Source: Halobacillus karajensis
Lineage (GTDB): Bacteria > Bacillota > Bacilli > Bacillales > Halobacillaceae
Direction of reading: 5' to 3'
DNA length: 64,000 nucleotides
NCBI RefSeq assembly: GCF_900108515.1
Contig: NZ_FNWW01000009.1
Span: 1-64,000, forward strand
This document shows, piece after piece, positions 12,254 through 49,966 of this stretch. A program made the translations under genes and the position numbers. Under the pieces are notes generated by a model. The model saw nothing but the letters and a program-made list of their open reading frames with translations. It was not told the origin of the DNA and searched no databases. The stretch's first letter is position 1; the number at the start of each line of letters is the position of its first letter.

Positions 12254-12631
12254 TTATAAAGCACGGGATTCCTGTACTTCTACAGGTCCCATCCCTCTAG
12301 GGACTTCAACAGTTTCATTTTTTCCAGCTTCCAACGCATCCACGATAAATTGGGCGGCAATATTTGGGTCAATACGATCTCCGCAAGTATAAACATCAAT
12401 GCTTGCATACCCGTGCTCTGGAAAACTGTGAATCGTTAAATGCGATTCTGAAATAATAACGACTCCACTAACTCCATGCGGGGCAAATTTATGGAAGGCT
12501 ACTTCCCGTACTTCTGCTCCCGCCCTAAGGGCAGCATCCACAAATACTTGTTCTATATACGACATATCATTTAATTTTGATTCATTACAATCCCATAATT
12601 CGGCTATTACGTGTCTTCCCATTGTATCCAT
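12254..12631 (-). CDS. speD: S-adenosylmethionine decarboxylase proenzyme
   Basis: 125-residue class 1B AdoMet decarboxylase. It self-cleaves at the serine in [15 protein letters not shown] to make the pyruvoyl group, then forms decarboxylated AdoMet, the aminopropyl donor for spermidine. The active-site TCGD and CAPHGVSG-like region ([12 protein letters not shown]) are present. The frame extends nine codons upstream to a GTG, but AAGGGGG is placed for the ATG of MDTMGRHV, which aligns with B. subtilis SpeD. Its product would be a substrate for aminopropyltransferases such as the membrane enzyme at 44802-46358. Confidence 0.96.
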
Positions 12632-12871
12632 ATTCAGGATCCCCCTTCGTACATTCACTCTTCAATACCCCTGAAATAACAGCCATGTACTACCACGGGG
12701 GAAAGTTAGTCCTGAGAGGTCCTAACCCTTTGAGTAGACATGAATTTATGTGAAAATCAGAAGTTCAAGAGAAAGTATATATGGTTTACCCCTAATTTGC
12801 AAGATATATTTTCCTTCCTGAAAATCTTGCTCATCTGCCTTCAATATGGATACAACAGAATTTCGGTTCAC

Positions 12872-44090: not shown

Positions 44091-44771
44091 TCACAGCTCT
44101 AATGACTCACCCGGCTTCAGTGCTTTTCCTGTACCTGGTTTTACCTCTTCCGCAAAAGCATCTCCATCTTGGTTAATTAAATCAAAGGTGTTGTAGTGGA
44201 CTGGGACCACCTGTTTCGCTTGAATCCATTCTGCTGCTACAAGAGCATCTGAAGGCCCCATAGTAAAATTATCACCAATAGGAAGAAAAGCCAGATCGAT
44301 ATCATTTCGTTCGCCAATTAATTTCATATCGCTGAACAACCCAGTATCCCCAGCATGATAAATGGTTTTCCCATCAATGGTTAGAAGGATCCCCGCGGGC
44401 ATACCGGTATATATAATCGTGCCATCTTCTTCTGTATAAGACGAACCGTGGAAGGCCTGTGTAAATTTCACATACCCAAAATCAAACTCATGACCACCTC
44501 CAATGTGCATTGGATGAGCATTCAGCCCTTTGTTTCCAAGGTATTCCGCCAGTTCGAAAGGGGCTACAACTTGCGTGTCATTTCGTTTAGCAATTTCAAA
44601 TGTATCCCCAACGTGATCATTGTGTCCATGCGTAAGCAAGATCACATCAGCTTTCACCTCGTCCGCATCCAGGTCTGTGTTCCCGTTTTCTGAGATGAAC
44701 GGATCAATAAGTATCGTTTTCCCATTTGCTTCAACTTTTACTACGGCATGACCATGATAAGAAACTTTCAT
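44091..44771 (-). CDS. ytkL: UPF0173 metal-dependent hydrolase YtkL
   Basis: 226-residue metallo-beta-lactamase fold hydrolase. Metal ligands: [10 protein letters not shown] (HxHxDH), HGSS near 113, [10 protein letters not shown] and a late His in VPVHYNTF. Substrate unknown. GGAG lies eight bases before ATG AAA; the GTG three codons upstream sits on that site. It is 30 bases downstream of the aminopropyltransferase gene on the same strand, so read-through from the PspA operon is possible. Confidence 0.93.
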
Positions 44772-44801
44772 TTCCAACACTCCTTTAAAAAGAATACCTA
44801 T

Positions 44802-46358
44802 TTAATAGTTTTGCCAAGCTCGTTCATATTTTTGAATTAAATGAGGATCTATTAATGTATTTGGTTTTAATGGGATCGCTTGGCCATCCTTGTTCAAGAT
44901 TTCCCCATCTTCATCTTTTCCAAACACCGTCATGGATTGAAAGACTTCTTCTGTAAGAAACTTCGTATCTACTGAAAAGCGAACCTCCTCAATATCAATA
45001 GGCTTCCGGCTCGCCATTACAAACCCCCAATTGCCAAAACTAGGTACATCCACATGAAAGTTTTCTGTATGAAGCCCTGTAGAAGCAATCGTCTTATCAA
45101 TTGTCCAATAAACATCTGTTGCAAATAACGGACTTGTTGCCTGAACCATCGTTGCTCCACCAGGAGATAAGTGGTTTCTTACTAGTGAATAAAATTCTTT
45201 TGTGTACAACTTGTTCAGACTTTCATTATTTGGATCAGGCAGATCTATAATAATCACATCATAAAACTCATCCGATTTTTCCAGAAACTCAAAAGCATCT
45301 TGATTTAATACATCCACTCGAGGATCATCAAGGGCTCCCTTGTTTATTTGCAGCAAATGGTAATTGCTCCTGGCGAGATCTGTGACGGCAGGATCAAGAT
45401 CCACAAGAGTGATTTCCTTAATCTCTTTATACTTAAGCAATTCATTGGCAGCTATTCCATCTCCTCCACCCAGAACAAGGACTTTATCCTTATTCTCTGC
45501 AAAAGCAACAGGCGGGTGGACAAGGGTTTCATGGTATCGATGTTCATCTGTTGAACTAAACTGTAAGGATCCATTTAAAAATAGGCGAGTGTCCCCCTGT
45601 TCCTTGGTAAGCACTATTCTTTGGTAAGCACTTTCTTCCATATGAATAATAGGGTCTTTATACAGCTTCTGTTCAAAAGAAAAAGCCATCTCTTCCCCGA
45701 AAAACAATCCCGCTATAAGAAGAACGCCTATCACAATGGCACCTGTTAAATGAATCGATAAGGTCTTTATTTCGGACCGAAATAAATATAAGACGGTAAC
45801 GGCAACAGCTAAGTTTATACATGCGACAAAGAAAGCACTCTTCACCATCCCCATCTGGGGTCTTAAATAGAAAGCAAATAACAAACCACCGATTAATCCA
45901 CCCGCGTAATCCGAAAAAAGCACCCGAGCTGTACTACGATTTAACTCTTCCCCGATTTCATTGGCTTTTCTAATTAATATGGGCAGTTCTAATCCTGTCA
46001 GTGCACCTATGGTGAATGTCACCAGGTATAGAAATAAGGCATCTGTGCCAGAAGGAGCGAAAGCGGTCATTCCAAACATTGTAAAACTGGAAAAACCACC
46101 AATTAATGCCACCATGAATTCAATCCAAATAAAAGTGACAATTAGTTGTTTCATCACTCGTTCACTTATACTTGCCCCAATACCCATTCCCGTTAGAAAA
46201 AGGCTGATGGTCAACGTGTACTGCTTTACCCCATCGCCTAATATATAGGAACCCAGTGCACCGAATAACACCTCAAAAATAATCCCACATATGGAAACAA
46301 TGCCAGATGCCCAGTATATAAAATGACTTTTTCTAAAATTTGCTTCCACTTTGTTCAC
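44802..46358 (-). CDS. Membrane-anchored spermidine synthase-like aminopropyltransferase
   Basis: 518 residues. The first 215 or so form about seven membrane helices (YWASGIVSICGIIFEVLFGALGS and on). The C-terminal half is a spermidine synthase domain: YQRIVL, LFLNGSLQFSSTDEHRYHE gate region, AdoMet site VLVLGGGDGIAANEL, VDLDP, and catalytic IIIDLPDPNN. It should transfer an aminopropyl group from decarboxylated AdoMet to an amine, perhaps at the membrane. It is the last gene of a PspA/DUF4178/DUF4247/DUF350 operon, 72 bases after DUF350, with a hairpin in the gap. GTG start, poor ribosome-binding spacing. Confidence 0.88.
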   Translation of the reverse strand: MNKVEANFRKSHFIYWASGIVSICGIIFEVLFGALGSYILGDGVKQYTLTISLFLTGMGIGASISERVMKQLIVTFIWIEFMVALIGGFSSFTMFGMTAFAPSGTDALFLYLVTFTIGALTGLELPILIRKANEIGEELNRSTARVLFSDYAGGLIGGLLFAFYLRPQMGMVKSAFFVACINLAVAVTVLYLFRSEIKTLSIHLTGAIVIGVLLIAGLFFGEEMAFSFEQKLYKDPIIHMEESAYQRIVLTKEQGDTRLFLNGSLQFSSTDEHRYHETLVHPPVAFAENKDKVLVLGGGDGIAANELLKYKEIKEITLVDLDPAVTDLARSNYHLLQINKGALDDPRVDVLNQDAFEFLEKSDEFYDVIIIDLPDPNNESLNKLYTKEFYSLVRNHLSPGGATMVQATSPLFATDVYWTIDKTIASTGLHTENFHVDVPSFGNWGFVMASRKPIDIEEVRFSVDTKFLTEEVFQSMTVFGKDEDGEILNKDGQAIPLKPNTLIDPHLIQKYERAWQNY

Positions 46359-46376
46359 TCACTCCACTTTTCACAA

Positions 46377-46409
46377 AAATCCACTATGAGGTCTATTCAT
46401 AGTGGATTT
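46377..46409 (-). terminator. Internal hairpin between the DUF350 and aminopropyltransferase genes
   Basis: AAATCCACTATGA pairs with TCATAGTGGATTT on the minus strand (13 bp), followed by TTGTG (five T in all with the stem end). It could reduce transcription of the last gene. Confidence 0.6.
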
Positions 46410-46429
46410 CTTGAAGATGTCTGGTGCGA

Positions 46430-46825
46430 TTACGTAATCGACGCGCCGATAACAAAAGCTAACCCGATGGATACCCCCATCGTAATAATACCAACAGCTG
46501 TATTATTTTCCTTCAGCTGTGTTTCTACAGAAAAACTGCGTGTGAATAATTCAAACAAAAGATAGGCAATCATTTGAAGAATAACACCGTAAGCTCCCCA
46601 AATTAGTGTATCCCATACGGTAAAACTGTGATAGATGGCAAATGATAGCACAATACAAATCCCTATAACCTTACCTGCAATAGACATGGCAACTGCTTGA
46701 TTTCCCTGCTTTACTTCTTCCCAATCCTTGTACTGCCTAGTTAACCATTCAAAGATCACCAGTCCGATGACAACAATGATAATAGCCATGACAAAATAAC
46801 CTAGAGTAGACAAAAATGGTTCCAT
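46430..46825 (-). CDS. DUF350 family membrane protein (YjfL-like)
   Basis: 131 residues, four membrane helices (about 7-27, 45-65, 71-95, 108-130). The two halves are similar, with the DUF350 signature DWEEVKQGNQAVAMSIAGKVIGI and the repeat KENNTAVGIITMGVSIGLAF. Function unknown; in E. coli the DUF350 protein YjfL is likewise encoded with a PspA paralogue (YjfJ) and a glutathionylspermidine-synthase-like enzyme (YjfC). AAGGAGG precedes the ATG. It is fourth in the five-gene operon. Confidence 0.88.
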   Translation of the reverse strand: MEPFLSTLGYFVMAIIIVVIGLVIFEWLTRQYKDWEEVKQGNQAVAMSIAGKVIGICIVLSFAIYHSFTVWDTLIWGAYGVILQMIAYLLFELFTRSFSVETQLKENNTAVGIITMGVSIGLAFVIGASIT

Positions 46826-46840
46826 TATTAATAACCTCCT

Positions 46841-47509
46841 TTATTTTCCTGTCCCGGGACCCCCACCACGATTGGTAGATCCTCTCATAGAACTTGTTCC
46901 TCCGGAATTATAATTCCCATACATGCCATAACCTCCATAACAATTCCCGGTTTGCTGACAGCTGGACCTTCTCCGGTCATACCAATCATTGGATCCAAGA
47001 GCCCGATTCAGCAAGGACCCTAAAAATAGTCCCTGAAAGAAGCTTGGAGAATAATTATTTCTAACAAATTCATCAGATGCTAGCTCAATGGTAATCAATC
47101 CCGCTTCTTCGTCACTCTCCTGTATAATTACAAAATGATCCGGATAGATGAGTGCCTGCTTATTTTCCTGTCTTTCACTTATCTCTTCCGGGGAGATTGC
47201 CGACGACAAAGAATCTGCGACTTCTTTCAAAGTCAACTCCTTTGTCATATAAATTCTCGATATGCCTTGATCCGATCTCACTGTATCTAATAAAGGAAAA
47301 CTTTCCTGAACCAATGATTCTATATCCTTTGCTTCAGACATTTCAATCGTATTTAATATTTCAGAGCGATCAGGCTCTGAGGGAAGTTCACCATATGTAT
47401 CTTCGGTAGCAGAGCCTGACATTCCTCTCTGGTCATTTCCACCGAATACATTGAACAATAAGAAAAAGGCAATGATTCCTACGACTATGATTCCTGCATA
47501 ATCTTTCAA
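46841..47509 (-). CDS. DUF4247 family membrane-anchored protein with Gly-rich tail
   Basis: 222 residues. One N-terminal membrane helix (about 4-21, YAGIIVVGIIAFFLLFNVFGG), a mixed alpha/beta domain (DIESLVQESFPLLDTVRSDQGISRIYMTKEL), then a low-complexity C-terminus rich in G, N, Y and S with a Cys pair (SCQQTGNCYGG). It probably faces outward, but topology is inferred. The frame opens at a GTG; GGAGG is seven bases before a TTG giving MKDYAGII, which is chosen. It is third in the operon after pspA. Confidence 0.82.
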   Translation of the reverse strand: MKDYAGIIVVGIIAFFLLFNVFGGNDQRGMSGSATEDTYGELPSEPDRSEILNTIEMSEAKDIESLVQESFPLLDTVRSDQGISRIYMTKELTLKEVADSLSSAISPEEISERQENKQALIYPDHFVIIQESDEEAGLITIELASDEFVRNNYSPSFFQGLFLGSLLNRALGSNDWYDRRRSSCQQTGNCYGGYGMYGNYNSGGTSSMRGSTNRGGGPGTGK

Positions 47510-47578
47510 AACACATCCTCCTTCCACAAAAAATAGCCGTGCCTGACTTGTGGCCAGGCACGAGACTTCGACCAGAGA

Positions 47579-48250
47579 TTACCCTTTATTCATCTTTTTC
47601 TTCAATGCTTCCAATTCACTATCTACACTATCTTTATTATTCAATTCCTCGAATTCATCATCAAGGGACCGGCTTTGGGAAGACATATCTTCACTTGTTT
47701 CGGCCTCTGCTTCATAATGCATCACTTTTTCTTCCATACGATCAAAACCTTGACGCGATTCGTCTCCTCCGATATTTGACATCGTACGATTCATCTTCGT
47801 ACGTGTTTTTGCCGATTCTGCACGTGCTTTCAATGAATCTTTTTTCAGTTTCATTTCCTGGTATTCTTTTTTCATTTCATCCAGTTTCTGGCGAAGATTG
47901 TCAGCATCCTGCTGTGCACGTTCCCAAGAAGATTTTAACTGATCTGCTTGATCCTGGTGATTTTTCTTATCCTCCAAAGCCCGGCGTGCTAAATCTTCAT
48001 TTCCTGCTTCAATCGCCTTTTCAGCTTGCTGCATACGCTTATCTACAAGAGCTTGAGAATCATCATATTTCCGTTTCAGCATTTTTTCATTGGCAATTTG
48101 TTTCGCTACTGCACTTTCCGCTTCACGAATGTCGTTTTCCATATCCCTCATAAATTGATCCAGCATCTTGACAGGATCTTCAGCTTTATCCAACATCGAA
48201 TTTAATTCGGAACCCACCACTGTCTTCACACGTTTAAAAAATTTGAACAT
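47579..48250 (-). CDS. PspA/IM30 family membrane-stress protein
   Basis: 223 residues, the ESCRT-III-like PspA fold: an amphipathic N-terminal helix (MFKFFKRVKTVVGSELNSML) and long alpha-helical coiled coil with LDQFMRDMENDIREAESAVAK. PspA proteins polymerise on damaged membranes and limit proton leakage; the B. subtilis homologue is sigma-W controlled. It is second in the operon, 15 bases after the DUF4178 gene. A 70-base gap to DUF4247 contains no terminator that I can see. Confidence 0.93.
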   Translation of the reverse strand: MFKFFKRVKTVVGSELNSMLDKAEDPVKMLDQFMRDMENDIREAESAVAKQIANEKMLKRKYDDSQALVDKRMQQAEKAIEAGNEDLARRALEDKKNHQDQADQLKSSWERAQQDADNLRQKLDEMKKEYQEMKLKKDSLKARAESAKTRTKMNRTMSNIGGDESRQGFDRMEEKVMHYEAEAETSEDMSSQSRSLDDEFEELNNKDSVDSELEALKKKMNKG

Positions 48251-48265
48251 CTTTATATTTCCTCC

Positions 48266-48778
48266 TTATTTTGAACCTGCAATAATTTTAATTTCATAAG
48301 CTTCAATATCATGACCTACACTAACTTCAACTTCACTCCCCCACGATTCGACACTTACATATGTCTCTTCATCTTCTGAAATATATTCGGCATAACGGGA
48401 AGTTCGGCCGTTAATATTTTTGCTTCTTCCTTCTCCCACCACGCGCGCTTCCCCTTCTTCATCTTTGAAAAAGGATTGGCCCTCGTATTCCAGTGTCTTA
48501 GGGAAAGGCAAAGTTACAGGTAATTTCACTGTTTCATATATGCCTAACTCTAACTCGTCATCCATTTCAGCGGCCAGCCATTTTGTTTGATTCCCCTCTA
48601 ATAACTGATAGGAAAACCATTCATACCCTCCATCCCGGTACGTAATTTTACCGACGACTTCATAATCCACAAGATCATAGGTGACAATGTCACCTACTTG
48701 GATATTCAGGGGAGTTCGCTCTGTTACTTCAGGTGTCTGTTTGTCCTTATTTGAAAACAATCTTGAAAAGAATCCCAA
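48266..48778 (-). CDS. DUF4178 domain protein
   Basis: 170 residues, soluble, acidic, beta-rich. N-terminal MGFFSRLFSNK may be amphipathic; the DUF4178 core has VGDIVTYDLVDYEVVGKITYRDGGYEW and the second half VKLPVTLPFPKTLEYEGQSFF. Function unknown, but this family regularly accompanies PspA, DUF350 and polyamine enzymes. TTG start with GGAGAGGTG about ten bases upstream. First gene of the operon, 48 bases from a sigma-W-type -10. Confidence 0.85.
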   Translation of the reverse strand: MGFFSRLFSNKDKQTPEVTERTPLNIQVGDIVTYDLVDYEVVGKITYRDGGYEWFSYQLLEGNQTKWLAAEMDDELELGIYETVKLPVTLPFPKTLEYEGQSFFKDEEGEARVVGEGRSKNINGRTSRYAEYISEDEETYVSVESWGSEVEVSVGHDIEAYEIKIIAGSK

Positions 48779-48825
48779 CTCTTCTCTTCACCTCTCCTTC
48801 AACTTTGACCCTGTGTACTTGTATG

Positions 48826-48852
48826 TACGTTTGTTACCAATCAAAGGTTTCA
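48826..48852 (-). promoter_or_regulatory. Sigma-W-type ECF promoter of the PspA/polyamine operon
   Basis: Minus strand TGAAAC (48847-48852), 17 bases, CGTA (48826-48829): full match to the sigma-W consensus. The start site would be near 48819, about 40 bases before the DUF4178 TTG. Confidence 0.8.
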
Positions 48853-49003: not shown

Positions 49004-49966
49004 ATGAAGACATTAGAAAAAATAAGCCAATTCGCTGGCAGCACCTTTGCCTTATGGGTTCTTCTTTTTGCCGCATTATCTTTTTATGTTCCGGAAGGAT
49101 TCACATGGATTGCCCCATACATTGTCCCCTTATTAGGAATTATCATGTTTGGTATGGGGTTGACCCTTTCAAAAAAGGATTTTCTGGAGGTTTTTAAACG
49201 ACCGAAAGATGTTGCGATTGGAGTAGGCGCACAATTCATTCTGATGCCCCTTCTGGCCTTTCTATTAGTGACTATACTTCCTGTATCCCCTGAAGTGGCC
49301 GTCGGGGTGATCCTCGTAGGATGCTGTCCTGGAGGGACATCTTCAAATGTTATGACCTATTTATCAAAAGGAGATACAGCACTCTCTGTAGCTATTACGT
49401 CTGTATCAACTATACTTGCGCCCCTCTTTACGCCATTTTTAGTTTGGATATTTGCCAGTCAATGGCTTCCCGTTTCAGCTGGAGATCTGTTTCTTTCAAT
49501 TGTTAATGTTGTCCTTTTACCTATTATTCTTGGGGTTGGTGTGAAAACCATTTTCAAAGAAAAGGTCGAAGCAACAATCAAGGCTCTTCCCCTTATTTCT
49601 GTTATCAGCATTGTGGCTATTGTAGCGGCCGTTGTAAGTGTAAACCATACCCAAATTGCAGAGACAGGAGCCACCATCTTCGCTATTGTTGTTGTTCACA
49701 ACCTTCTTGGTTATTTGACTGGGTATGGATTAGGAAAACTCTTTAATATGGAGCCCATCAAAAAGCGCGCCGTTTCTATTGAAGTTGGTATGCAAAATTC
49801 CGGTTTAGGGGCGTCTCTAGCAGCCGTGCATTTCAGTCCACTTGCAGCTGTACCAAGTGCCATTTTCAGCGTGTGGCATAACATATCCGGACCAATCATA
49901 GCGACCATCTTTCGAAAACAGAAGGAGGTTAAGTCGACAGATCATCATTATACAAAATCCGCTTAA
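49004..49966 (+). CDS. Bile acid:sodium symporter (BASS) family transporter, YocS-like
   Basis: 320 residues with nine or ten membrane helices. BASS signatures: GMGLTLSKKDF, VGCCPGGTSSNVMTYLSKGDTALSVAITSVST (the sodium-site crossover) and IEVGMQNSGLGASLA. Sodium-coupled uptake of an organic anion is the family activity; related bacterial proteins move ketopantoate or bile acids. The substrate here is unknown. GGAGTGATATCGC precedes the ATG. Single gene facing ald. Confidence 0.88.
   Translation: MKTLEKISQFAGSTFALWVLLFAALSFYVPEGFTWIAPYIVPLLGIIMFGMGLTLSKKDFLEVFKRPKDVAIGVGAQFILMPLLAFLLVTILPVSPEVAVGVILVGCCPGGTSSNVMTYLSKGDTALSVAITSVSTILAPLFTPFLVWIFASQWLPVSAGDLFLSIVNVVLLPIILGVGVKTIFKEKVEATIKALPLISVISIVAIVAAVVSVNHTQIAETGATIFAIVVVHNLLGYLTGYGLGKLFNMEPIKKRAVSIEVGMQNSGLGASLAAVHFSPLAAVPSAIFSVWHNISGPIIATIFRKQKEVKSTDHHYTKSA

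Follow-up and report, generated by a model that had tools for sequence, protein, structure and literature searches.

The 64,000-nucleotide stretch of Halobacillus karajensis DNA analysed here (contig NZ_FNWW01000009.1, positions 1 to 64,000; hereafter the window) contains a run of five minus-strand genes encoding a DUF4178 protein, a PspA/IM30 family protein, a DUF4247 protein, a DUF350 membrane protein and a membrane-bound aminopropyltransferase, the last of which is referred to below as the enzyme (Table 1). An initial annotation, made from the letters of the window and its open reading frames, had placed five such genes between positions 44802 and 48852; both their positions and, by Pfam, the family names of all five proteins were borne out. 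Two starts were considered for the DUF4247 reading frame, of which the TTG at 47509, preceded by GGAGG, appears more likely than the GTG at 47527. Weak matches of the DUF4178 protein to pilus proteins (E 0.018) were taken as chance.

Table 1 Features of the operon, its flanks and the speD gene within the window
Feature	Position	Strand	Basis
Sigma-W-type promoter TGAAAC-N17-CGTA, upstream of the DUF4178 gene	48826..48852	minus	exact motif
DUF4178 protein, 170 amino acids, TTG start	48266..48778	minus	Pfam PF13785, E 9.6e-35
PspA/IM30 family protein, 223 amino acids	47579..48250	minus	Pfam PF04012 (PspA_IM30), E 1.3e-49
Strong terminator-like hairpin, pspA/DUF4247 junction	47537..47563	minus	hairpin scan
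DUF4247 protein (anchor helix at the N-terminus, folded domain, disordered tail)	46841..47527	minus	Pfam PF14042, E 8.9e-12; AlphaFold2
C-terminal tail RGGGPGTGK and stop, proposed acceptor peptide; C-terminal lysine, proposed acceptor residue	46841..46870	minus	
DUF350 (YjfL-type) membrane protein, 131 amino acids	46430..46825	minus	Pfam PF03994, E 2e-38
Second terminator-like hairpin, DUF350/enzyme junction	46377..46409	minus	hairpin scan
Membrane domain (7 helices) fused to aminopropyltransferase domain (the enzyme)	44802..46358	minus	Spermine_synth, E 1.6e-40; NF002956; structure model
Metal-dependent hydrolase gene, next downstream of the enzyme gene, same strand	44091-44780	minus	
Sodium/bile-acid-type symporter gene, upstream of the operon, divergent	49004-49966		
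speD, S-adenosylmethionine decarboxylase	12254..12658	minus	sole PF02675 match of the genome

The sigma-W consensus is TGAAAC-N16/17-CGTA, and the full match that had been described at the head of the run was confirmed, reading from 48852 to 48826. Two exact TGAAAC/CGTA motifs occur in the window against 0.43 expected, and because at least two were also found in 8 of 100 shuffled sequences, a single motif is weak evidence by itself. Upstream regions of DUF4178 were compared across 35 loci (the window, 33 further loci and L070, described below). TGAAAC-N15-18-CGTA was present in 26 of these, where shuffling gives an expectation of 0.0013 per region; the other nine fit a looser sigma-W pattern, the chance rate having been computed for the exact pattern only. 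Furthermore, the host genome encodes SigW (TIGR02948, 314.8 bits; cut-off 243.1). A scan for sigma-70 promoters returned 10 matches against 13.4 expected. The pspA gene of Bacillus subtilis is sigma-W-dependent, and the available passages of PMC3498285 place it in a 'secondary' sigma-W operon. That operon, pspA-ydjG-ydjH-ydjI, shares the sigma-W-dependent pspA with ours but has different partner genes, and B. subtilis, included as a named control, gave no match to the enzyme profile NF002956 at E 1e-60. The conserved motif and the presence of SigW thus support, at the level of sequence, the earlier suggestion of sigma-W control. We read the genes as an envelope-stress operon, apparently induced by damage to the envelope, in which PspA, a membrane-repair protein, is paired with a membrane-bound enzyme of polyamine chemistry.

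Conservation of the gene set was assessed in 120 genomes of the order to which the host belongs (the host order), with the enzyme scored as a match to NCBIfam NF002956 over its cut-off. It was found in 37 genomes, and the five-gene order, for which the initial annotation had suggested that related genomes be searched, was kept in 34 of them (the window and 36 fetched stretches), once with an extra DUF350 gene inserted (L041). In one further genome, G077 (L070), the enzyme is split between two frames and falls below the cut-off; the five genes are present there as well. The three exceptions, G006 (L063), G033 (L067) and G075 (L069), retain enzyme-DUF350-DUF4247, and at L069 a pspA gene lies alongside on the opposite strand. 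The closest named matches to the enzyme, among them those of H. faecis and H. litoralis, are 90% identical. Among 348 Bacillota genomes the enzyme exceeded the cut-off in 12, ten of which lie outside the host order, and DUF4178 and PspA adjoin the set in nine of these ten loci. The operon is widespread: the enzyme occurs in Bacillota, Proteobacteria, Gemmatimonadota and, more distantly, haloarchaea.

Two arrangements were observed in addition. In G006, which belongs to the host genus, the usual operon retains DUF4178-PspA-DUF4247-DUF350, with the DUF4247 tail kept, but the enzyme is gone; a diverged enzyme-DUF350-DUF4247 set lies at a second place (L234:5785-9003 and L063:1135-3696). In Bacillota outside the host order, a gene for a potassium-channel-like protein (Ion_trans_2 and TrkA_N) adjoins the enzyme gene at four loci (L240:8386-9411, L241:5873-6892, L244:8427-9476 and L246:4972-5994).

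A scan of the region for terminator-like hairpins followed by a T-run gave six sites against 2.7 expected, including the one at the pspA/DUF4247 junction, and a second hairpin was located between DUF350 and the enzyme (Table 1). Neither is mentioned in the initial annotation. In 106 loci where the five genes share a strand, drawn from 120 and some possibly representing the same genome, such hairpins were found at the PspA-DUF4247 junction in 43 and at the DUF350-enzyme junction in 45, compared with three at DUF4247-DUF350 and one at DUF4178-PspA. This contrast is partly an effect of length, since gaps of 25 bases or fewer were left out of the scan and the median gaps are 71 and 66 bases at the first two junctions and 19 and 16 at the others. 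We propose partial termination at the pspA/DUF4247 hairpin. With two internal hairpins, even expression of the five genes is doubtful, and graded expression appears likelier than one even transcript.

The enzyme matches NF002956, 'polyamine aminopropyltransferase', with 605 bits (cut-off 472) over residues 6-517 of 518. Its structure model (mean predicted local distance difference test score, pLDDT, 88.6; predicted template modelling score 0.66) contains seven long helices (residues 3-232) ahead of a catalytic domain at about 235-518, in agreement with the seven-helix domain originally described. The best fold match of the catalytic domain is the Thermus thermophilus aminopropyltransferase 1uir (Z 35.1, root-mean-square deviation 2.8, 278 residues), followed among solved folds by thermospermine synthase (Z 33.9); the matches span almost solely residues 223-497 and hardly reach the seven-helix part. 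The GGGDG and DLPDP motifs are retained. D300, in the GGGDG region, and D372 do not vary among 18 aligned proteins, one of which is a soluble relative and another the ordinary SpeE, while D375 and Q406 are present in all membrane-class rows except two haloarchaeal enzymes. Model and motifs together support a real aminopropyltransferase fold with the catalytic aspartate motif retained, upholding the spermidine synthase domain of the initial annotation. Within the membrane part, the acidic residues E80, E124 and D150 are invariant in aligned Bacillales enzymes; across phyla D150 alone is nearly so.

DUF4247 proteins vary in sequence but share one ending at the very C-terminus. The sequence RGGGxxxGK ends 106 of 106 distinct DUF4247 proteins (from 114 matches at Bacillota loci L034-L153); its six fixed residues are 100% conserved, set against a mean top-residue frequency of 0.49 over 192 well-filled columns. 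At the same loci a C-terminal lysine is found in 28 of 99 DUF4178 proteins, 17 of 99 PspA proteins, none of 107 DUF350 proteins and none of 115 enzymes. An AlphaFold2 model built with 28 sequences (mean pLDDT 80.8) shows a membrane helix at residues 7-28 and a confident fold at 54-200; the tail, residues 207-228, mostly scores below 50 (216-228 entirely so) and is predicted to be disordered. A simple pattern detects a lipobox-like start in 86 of the 106. By Pfam, DUF4247 is present in 31 of the 120 genomes of the host order, all of them enzyme-bearing if G077, with its split copy under the cut-off, is counted.

Partner proteins with a terminal lysine also occur beyond the order. At all ten Bacillota loci outside it the partner ends in GK. 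Twelve plasmid records covering 80% or more of the enzyme were identified, all from Proteobacteria or Gemmatimonadota, and ten of them were fetched. Here the partner, a small protein or lipoprotein, ends in lysine in eight of ten loci and five of six genera: GGGPESGK in Ensifer, RGPSSGK in Alteromonas, FRHGK in Gemmatirosa, GPSHK or GPTHK in three Novosphingobium loci and NRVK in two Tritonibacter loci. Four of these partners scanned whole, and a fifth scanned as a 27-residue piece, gave no Pfam match over cut-off. Haloarchaeal partner lipoproteins end WKVSPRI or similar and have a glycine-rich inner stretch, with two adjacent copies in Halorussus aquaticus (L161:4427-5929).

A second type of operon provides a contrast. 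E. coli yjfIJKLMC likewise combines a PspA paralogue, a DUF350 protein, a lipoprotein with a glycine-rich tail and a polyamine enzyme, while ygiBC has only the lipoprotein and the ligase in common. Both differ from the present operon in carrying an ATP-grasp ligase, of which none was found among eight genes scanned (the five and three neighbours), in place of the aminopropyltransferase, and their partner lipoproteins end in Gly-Gly, not lysine. RefSeq annotates YgiC and YjfC as peptide--spermidine ligase, and the proteins encoded beside relatives of these enzymes (neighbour picked by eye) end in glycine or serine in eight of eight cases and in lysine in none. The two kinds of ending may correspond to two chemistries, since the ligase uses a carboxylate whereas a transferase needs an amine. 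By this analogy, the kinship we propose with the peptide-spermidine ligase systems is one of similar working, not of membership.

The presumed source of decarboxylated S-adenosylmethionine (SAM) for the enzyme is SpeD, encoded within the window at a distance of about 32 kb. Every one of the 37 enzyme-bearing genomes of the host order has SpeD, a count that is weak by itself because 113 of the 120 genomes have it regardless of the enzyme; outside the order it was found in seven of the ten enzyme-bearing Bacillota. Linkage of the two genes appears to be the stronger evidence of a donor: speD is directly the next gene after that of the enzyme in Alteromonas, lies one gene away in Novosphingobium, and in G075 is about 1.1 kb from the enzyme locus on the opposite strand. 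The open frame that SpeD shares with a soluble sister enzyme in three genomes, described below, belongs to the same evidence. The host genome also carries a separate, ordinary spermidine synthase (SpeE), and a second synthase match occurs in 35 of the 37 genomes. With that SpeE and a conserved lysine tail encoded next door, the doubt expressed in the initial annotation about putrescine as the acceptor was well placed.

Several further arrangements of speD were seen. Many relatives likewise have it some 30-40 kb away from the enzyme gene, probably an old gene order. In G026, G029 and G054 a soluble sister of the enzyme and SpeD share a single open frame (L193:4496-5830, L195:5096-6406 and L200:5089-6411); the sister has 44-46% identity to the enzyme over the catalytic domain and is elsewhere a close neighbour of the SpeD gene. 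In Novosphingobium (L156:8442-10432) a flavin amine oxidase gene (PF01593) and then speD follow the enzyme gene, a placement as if the added group could undergo oxidation.

Three of the ten enzyme-bearing Bacillota genomes outside the host order lack SpeD, and a DUF2617 gene lies within the operon in exactly those three (L238:6025-6564, L239:9065-9622 and L240:5773-6336) and in no other of the 348 Bacillota genomes; the DUF2617 family, PF10936, was matched in none of the 120 genomes of the host order, the host included. The 47 distinct enzyme-bearing Bacillota genomes divide into 44 with SpeD alone and three with DUF2617 alone, a split with a chance of 1 in 16,215 by counting, a figure that ignores relatedness. 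The survey also included 14 named control genomes. Among them, Corynebacterium glutamicum has a DUF2617 match, the enzyme over cut-off and no SpeD match; Haloferax volcanii has a DUF2617 match, an enzyme match below cut-off and no SpeD match; and Lactococcus lactis has a Spermine_synth match and none to SpeD, DUF2617 or NF002956. DUF2617 is likewise encoded at the haloarchaeal locus L161 (7752-8366). A haloarchaeal DUF2617 query returned 12 haloarchaeal records, and no plasmid relatives of a Bacillota DUF2617 were found.

A profile of 11 DUF2617 proteins was compared with one of 10 SpeD proteins. A shared F-x-P...T...HTYPE motif was aligned over 31 columns (score 32.6, E 1.4e-4, probability 52%); 200 column-shuffled controls scored at most 21.5 and a reversed profile 15.5, and with five DUF2617 proteins the probability was 27%. 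DUF2617 has an invariant Ser-His and an invariant cysteine 19 residues past the serine, where the spacing in SpeD is 20; we take the SpeD counterparts of these residues to be the pyruvoyl serine and the catalytic cysteine. Against kinship, the DUF2617 proteins scanned had no AdoMet_dc match in Pfam, and one matched Cas6b_C weakly (E 4e-5, below the cut-off). Sequence searches found no solved relatives of DUF2617, nor of DUF4247. Since the matching stretch is short, kinship is only a lead, and DUF2617 is possibly a hidden, diverged SAM decarboxylase. If so, it would account for the enzyme in genomes lacking SpeD. Use of SAM itself as donor in those lineages is less likely, given the complementary occurrence of DUF2617 and SpeD and their shared motif.

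We propose, with a probability of roughly 0.45, that the enzyme aminopropylates the C-terminal lysine of the DUF4247 envelope protein. PspA and DUF4178 would work at the membrane's inner face. The membrane-bound enzyme would take the aminopropyl group from decarboxylated SAM made by SpeD and pass it to the side-chain amine of the invariant lysine, with the disordered RGGGxxxGK tail as its substrate. The lysine side chain would thereby become -(CH2)4-NH-(CH2)3-NH2, a spermidine-like group, and under stress the membrane would acquire a more cationic, anchored tail. The proposal sets out from the computed gene set, promoter and conservation, the fold and motif of the enzyme, the donor gene, the invariance of the tail and the finding of DUF4247 only in enzyme-bearing genomes; from there we infer that the tail is the acceptor, what reaction takes place and on which side of the membrane, and that the effect is protective. 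Hypusine, in eIF5A, is a protein lysine given an aminobutyl group from spermidine in the cytosol. The proposed modification would share with it a lysine that receives an aminoalkyl group from polyamine metabolism; the hypusine enzyme is unrelated, its group is aminobutyl and it is cytosolic.

A number of observations weigh against this proposal. The catalytic domain resembles enzymes acting on free polyamines, and SpeD, as noted, is common irrespective of the enzyme. The Pfam search missed DUF4247 in 7 of 37 enzyme genomes where BLAST detects the protein, so that the count overstates how securely it is absent elsewhere. The 106 tails are mostly from a single order; as parts of homologous operons they are not independent observations, and the same genome may be represented by more than one locus. 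The tail could instead be a docking or sorting signal. At the two Burkholderia loci examined, no partner gene was found in the 900 bases upstream on the operon strand, the downstream side having been searched in part only, and haloarchaeal partners end in PRI or PRV, not lysine (nine of nine proteins, eight records). In addition, the internal hairpins speak against a single even transcript.

The predicted topology is a further difficulty. With loop segments assigned manually from the window protein, mean counts of lysine plus arginine in 116 enzymes were 2.6, 2.0, 4.1 and 3.3 for the N-terminus and its same-side loops, compared with 0.9, 0.0 and 1.0 for the opposite loops; 16 diverse enzymes, from haloarchaea to Proteobacteria, had 8-17 on the N-terminal side and 0-2 opposite. 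These counts put the N-terminus inside, and seven helices therefore place the catalytic domain outside, a sequence-based prediction that would locate it on the same side as the lipoprotein tail and away from its cytosolic donor. We know of no decarboxylated SAM outside the cell. One possibility is that the helices deal with decarboxylated SAM; the other is that the lysine and arginine rule misleads here and the tail is modified before export. Two other indicators of topology were rejected. An absence of cysteine from this domain, seen in 112 of 116 fused enzymes, was shared by 16 of 21 ordinary cytosolic SpeE proteins (among the soluble SpeD-linked relatives, 13 of 14 contain cysteine), and net charge did not clearly differ (-7.3 per 100 residues, against -6.5 in ordinary and -5.6 in soluble linked enzymes). 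In an improbable, more novel version of the proposal, the seven-helix part would pass decarboxylated SAM outwards, the external domain would aminopropylate the partner lysine, and DUF2617 would make the donor in lineages without SpeD, namely the three Bacillota, C. glutamicum and the haloarchaea (in-operon at the Bacillota and haloarchaeal loci). If true, this would be a stress-induced, hypusine-like modification outside the cytosol.

The best-placed alternative, although we consider it unlikely, is that the enzyme is a membrane-bound polyamine synthase making spermidine, thermospermine or spermine at the membrane under stress, with the seven-helix part exporting the product and the tail having a different role, for example docking to the enzyme or DUF350. 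Its closest folds are indeed triamine/agmatine and thermospermine synthases, the DLPDP motif and Gln406 are retained, its NCBIfam name is that of a polyamine enzyme, and its N-terminal part is termed transporter-like in the available portions of Ravi et al. 2024 (PMC11237479). However, the host already has its own speE, as do most relatives a second synthase match, and a synthase leaves unexplained both the terminal lysine of partners that have no common Pfam family and the finding of DUF4247 only in enzyme-bearing genomes.

Less likely still is a reading in which the tail serves for recognition or sorting, by a protease, a ligase or the DUF350 protein, and the enzyme modifies a lipid or wall polymer. 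An invariant, disordered C-terminal motif would suit such a signal, and PspA links the operon to membrane homeostasis; yet the five genes are the only constant ones seen in the loci of the order, other neighbours being partly annotated, and the contrast between lysine and Gly/Ser endings is left unexplained. Very improbable is mere regulatory convenience, in which transcription driven by sigma-W covers DUF4178-pspA and mostly ends at the hairpins, leaving the other three genes as a unit of their own with an unrelated function: the hairpin frequencies (read with the length effect given above) and the runs of enzyme-DUF350-DUF4247 without PspA at L063, L067 and L245, or with PspA divergent at L069, agree with it, but the five-gene order of the 34 genomes, PspA and DUF4178 beside the set in nine of ten loci outside the order, and the retention of DUF4178-PspA-DUF4247-DUF350 in G006 despite loss of the enzyme all argue otherwise.

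Parts of this picture have precedent. In the passages available from Ravi et al. (PMC11237479), an operon of PspA, a 7TM-spermidine synthase, DUF350 and DUF4178 with a CesT/Tir chaperone is described, polyamine sensing or 'aminopropylation of other substrates' is suggested, and a DUF4247/DUF2617 variant without the CesT/Tir-PspA pair is exemplified by accession CCP45395. The present operon shares with the first type PspA, the 7TM-synthase fusion, DUF350, DUF4178 and an envelope protein. No CesT/Tir-like chaperone was matched in Pfam among the five genes and three scanned neighbours, and our operon is for that reason a variant of the type. We take CCP45395 to be a mycobacterial protein. Compared with the published DUF4247/DUF2617 variant (PMC11237479, same passages), the host has DUF4247 and no DUF2617 match in its genome. 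The gene grouping and the idea of other substrates were thus published in 2024; what is new is a named candidate acceptor and a donor scheme. The same passages name no acceptor, and neither they nor the passages of PMC13118837 contain the lysine tail, the sigma-W footprint or the complementarity of DUF2617 and SpeD. The membrane and fusion parts of PMC11107197, in which bacterial aminopropyltransferases are characterised, do not name a membrane-fused one. A literature search combining aminopropylation, C-terminal lysine and lipoprotein gave nothing on point among the matches listed, subscription journals being mostly outside its coverage.

Aminopropylation of the DUF4247 tail would give an unexplained operon a concrete, testable job, namely modification of the tail of one named protein. 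If true, a new protein modification would connect envelope stress and PspA with polyamine chemistry, and would bring together two kinds of operon, in some of which DUF350 is shared: in one a ligase joins spermidine to a C-terminal glycine or serine, in the other a transferase makes a C-terminal lysine spermidine-like. DUF2617, too, is assigned a possible function, and should the predicted topology hold, it would have to be explained how a SAM derivative comes to be used on the outer side of the membrane.

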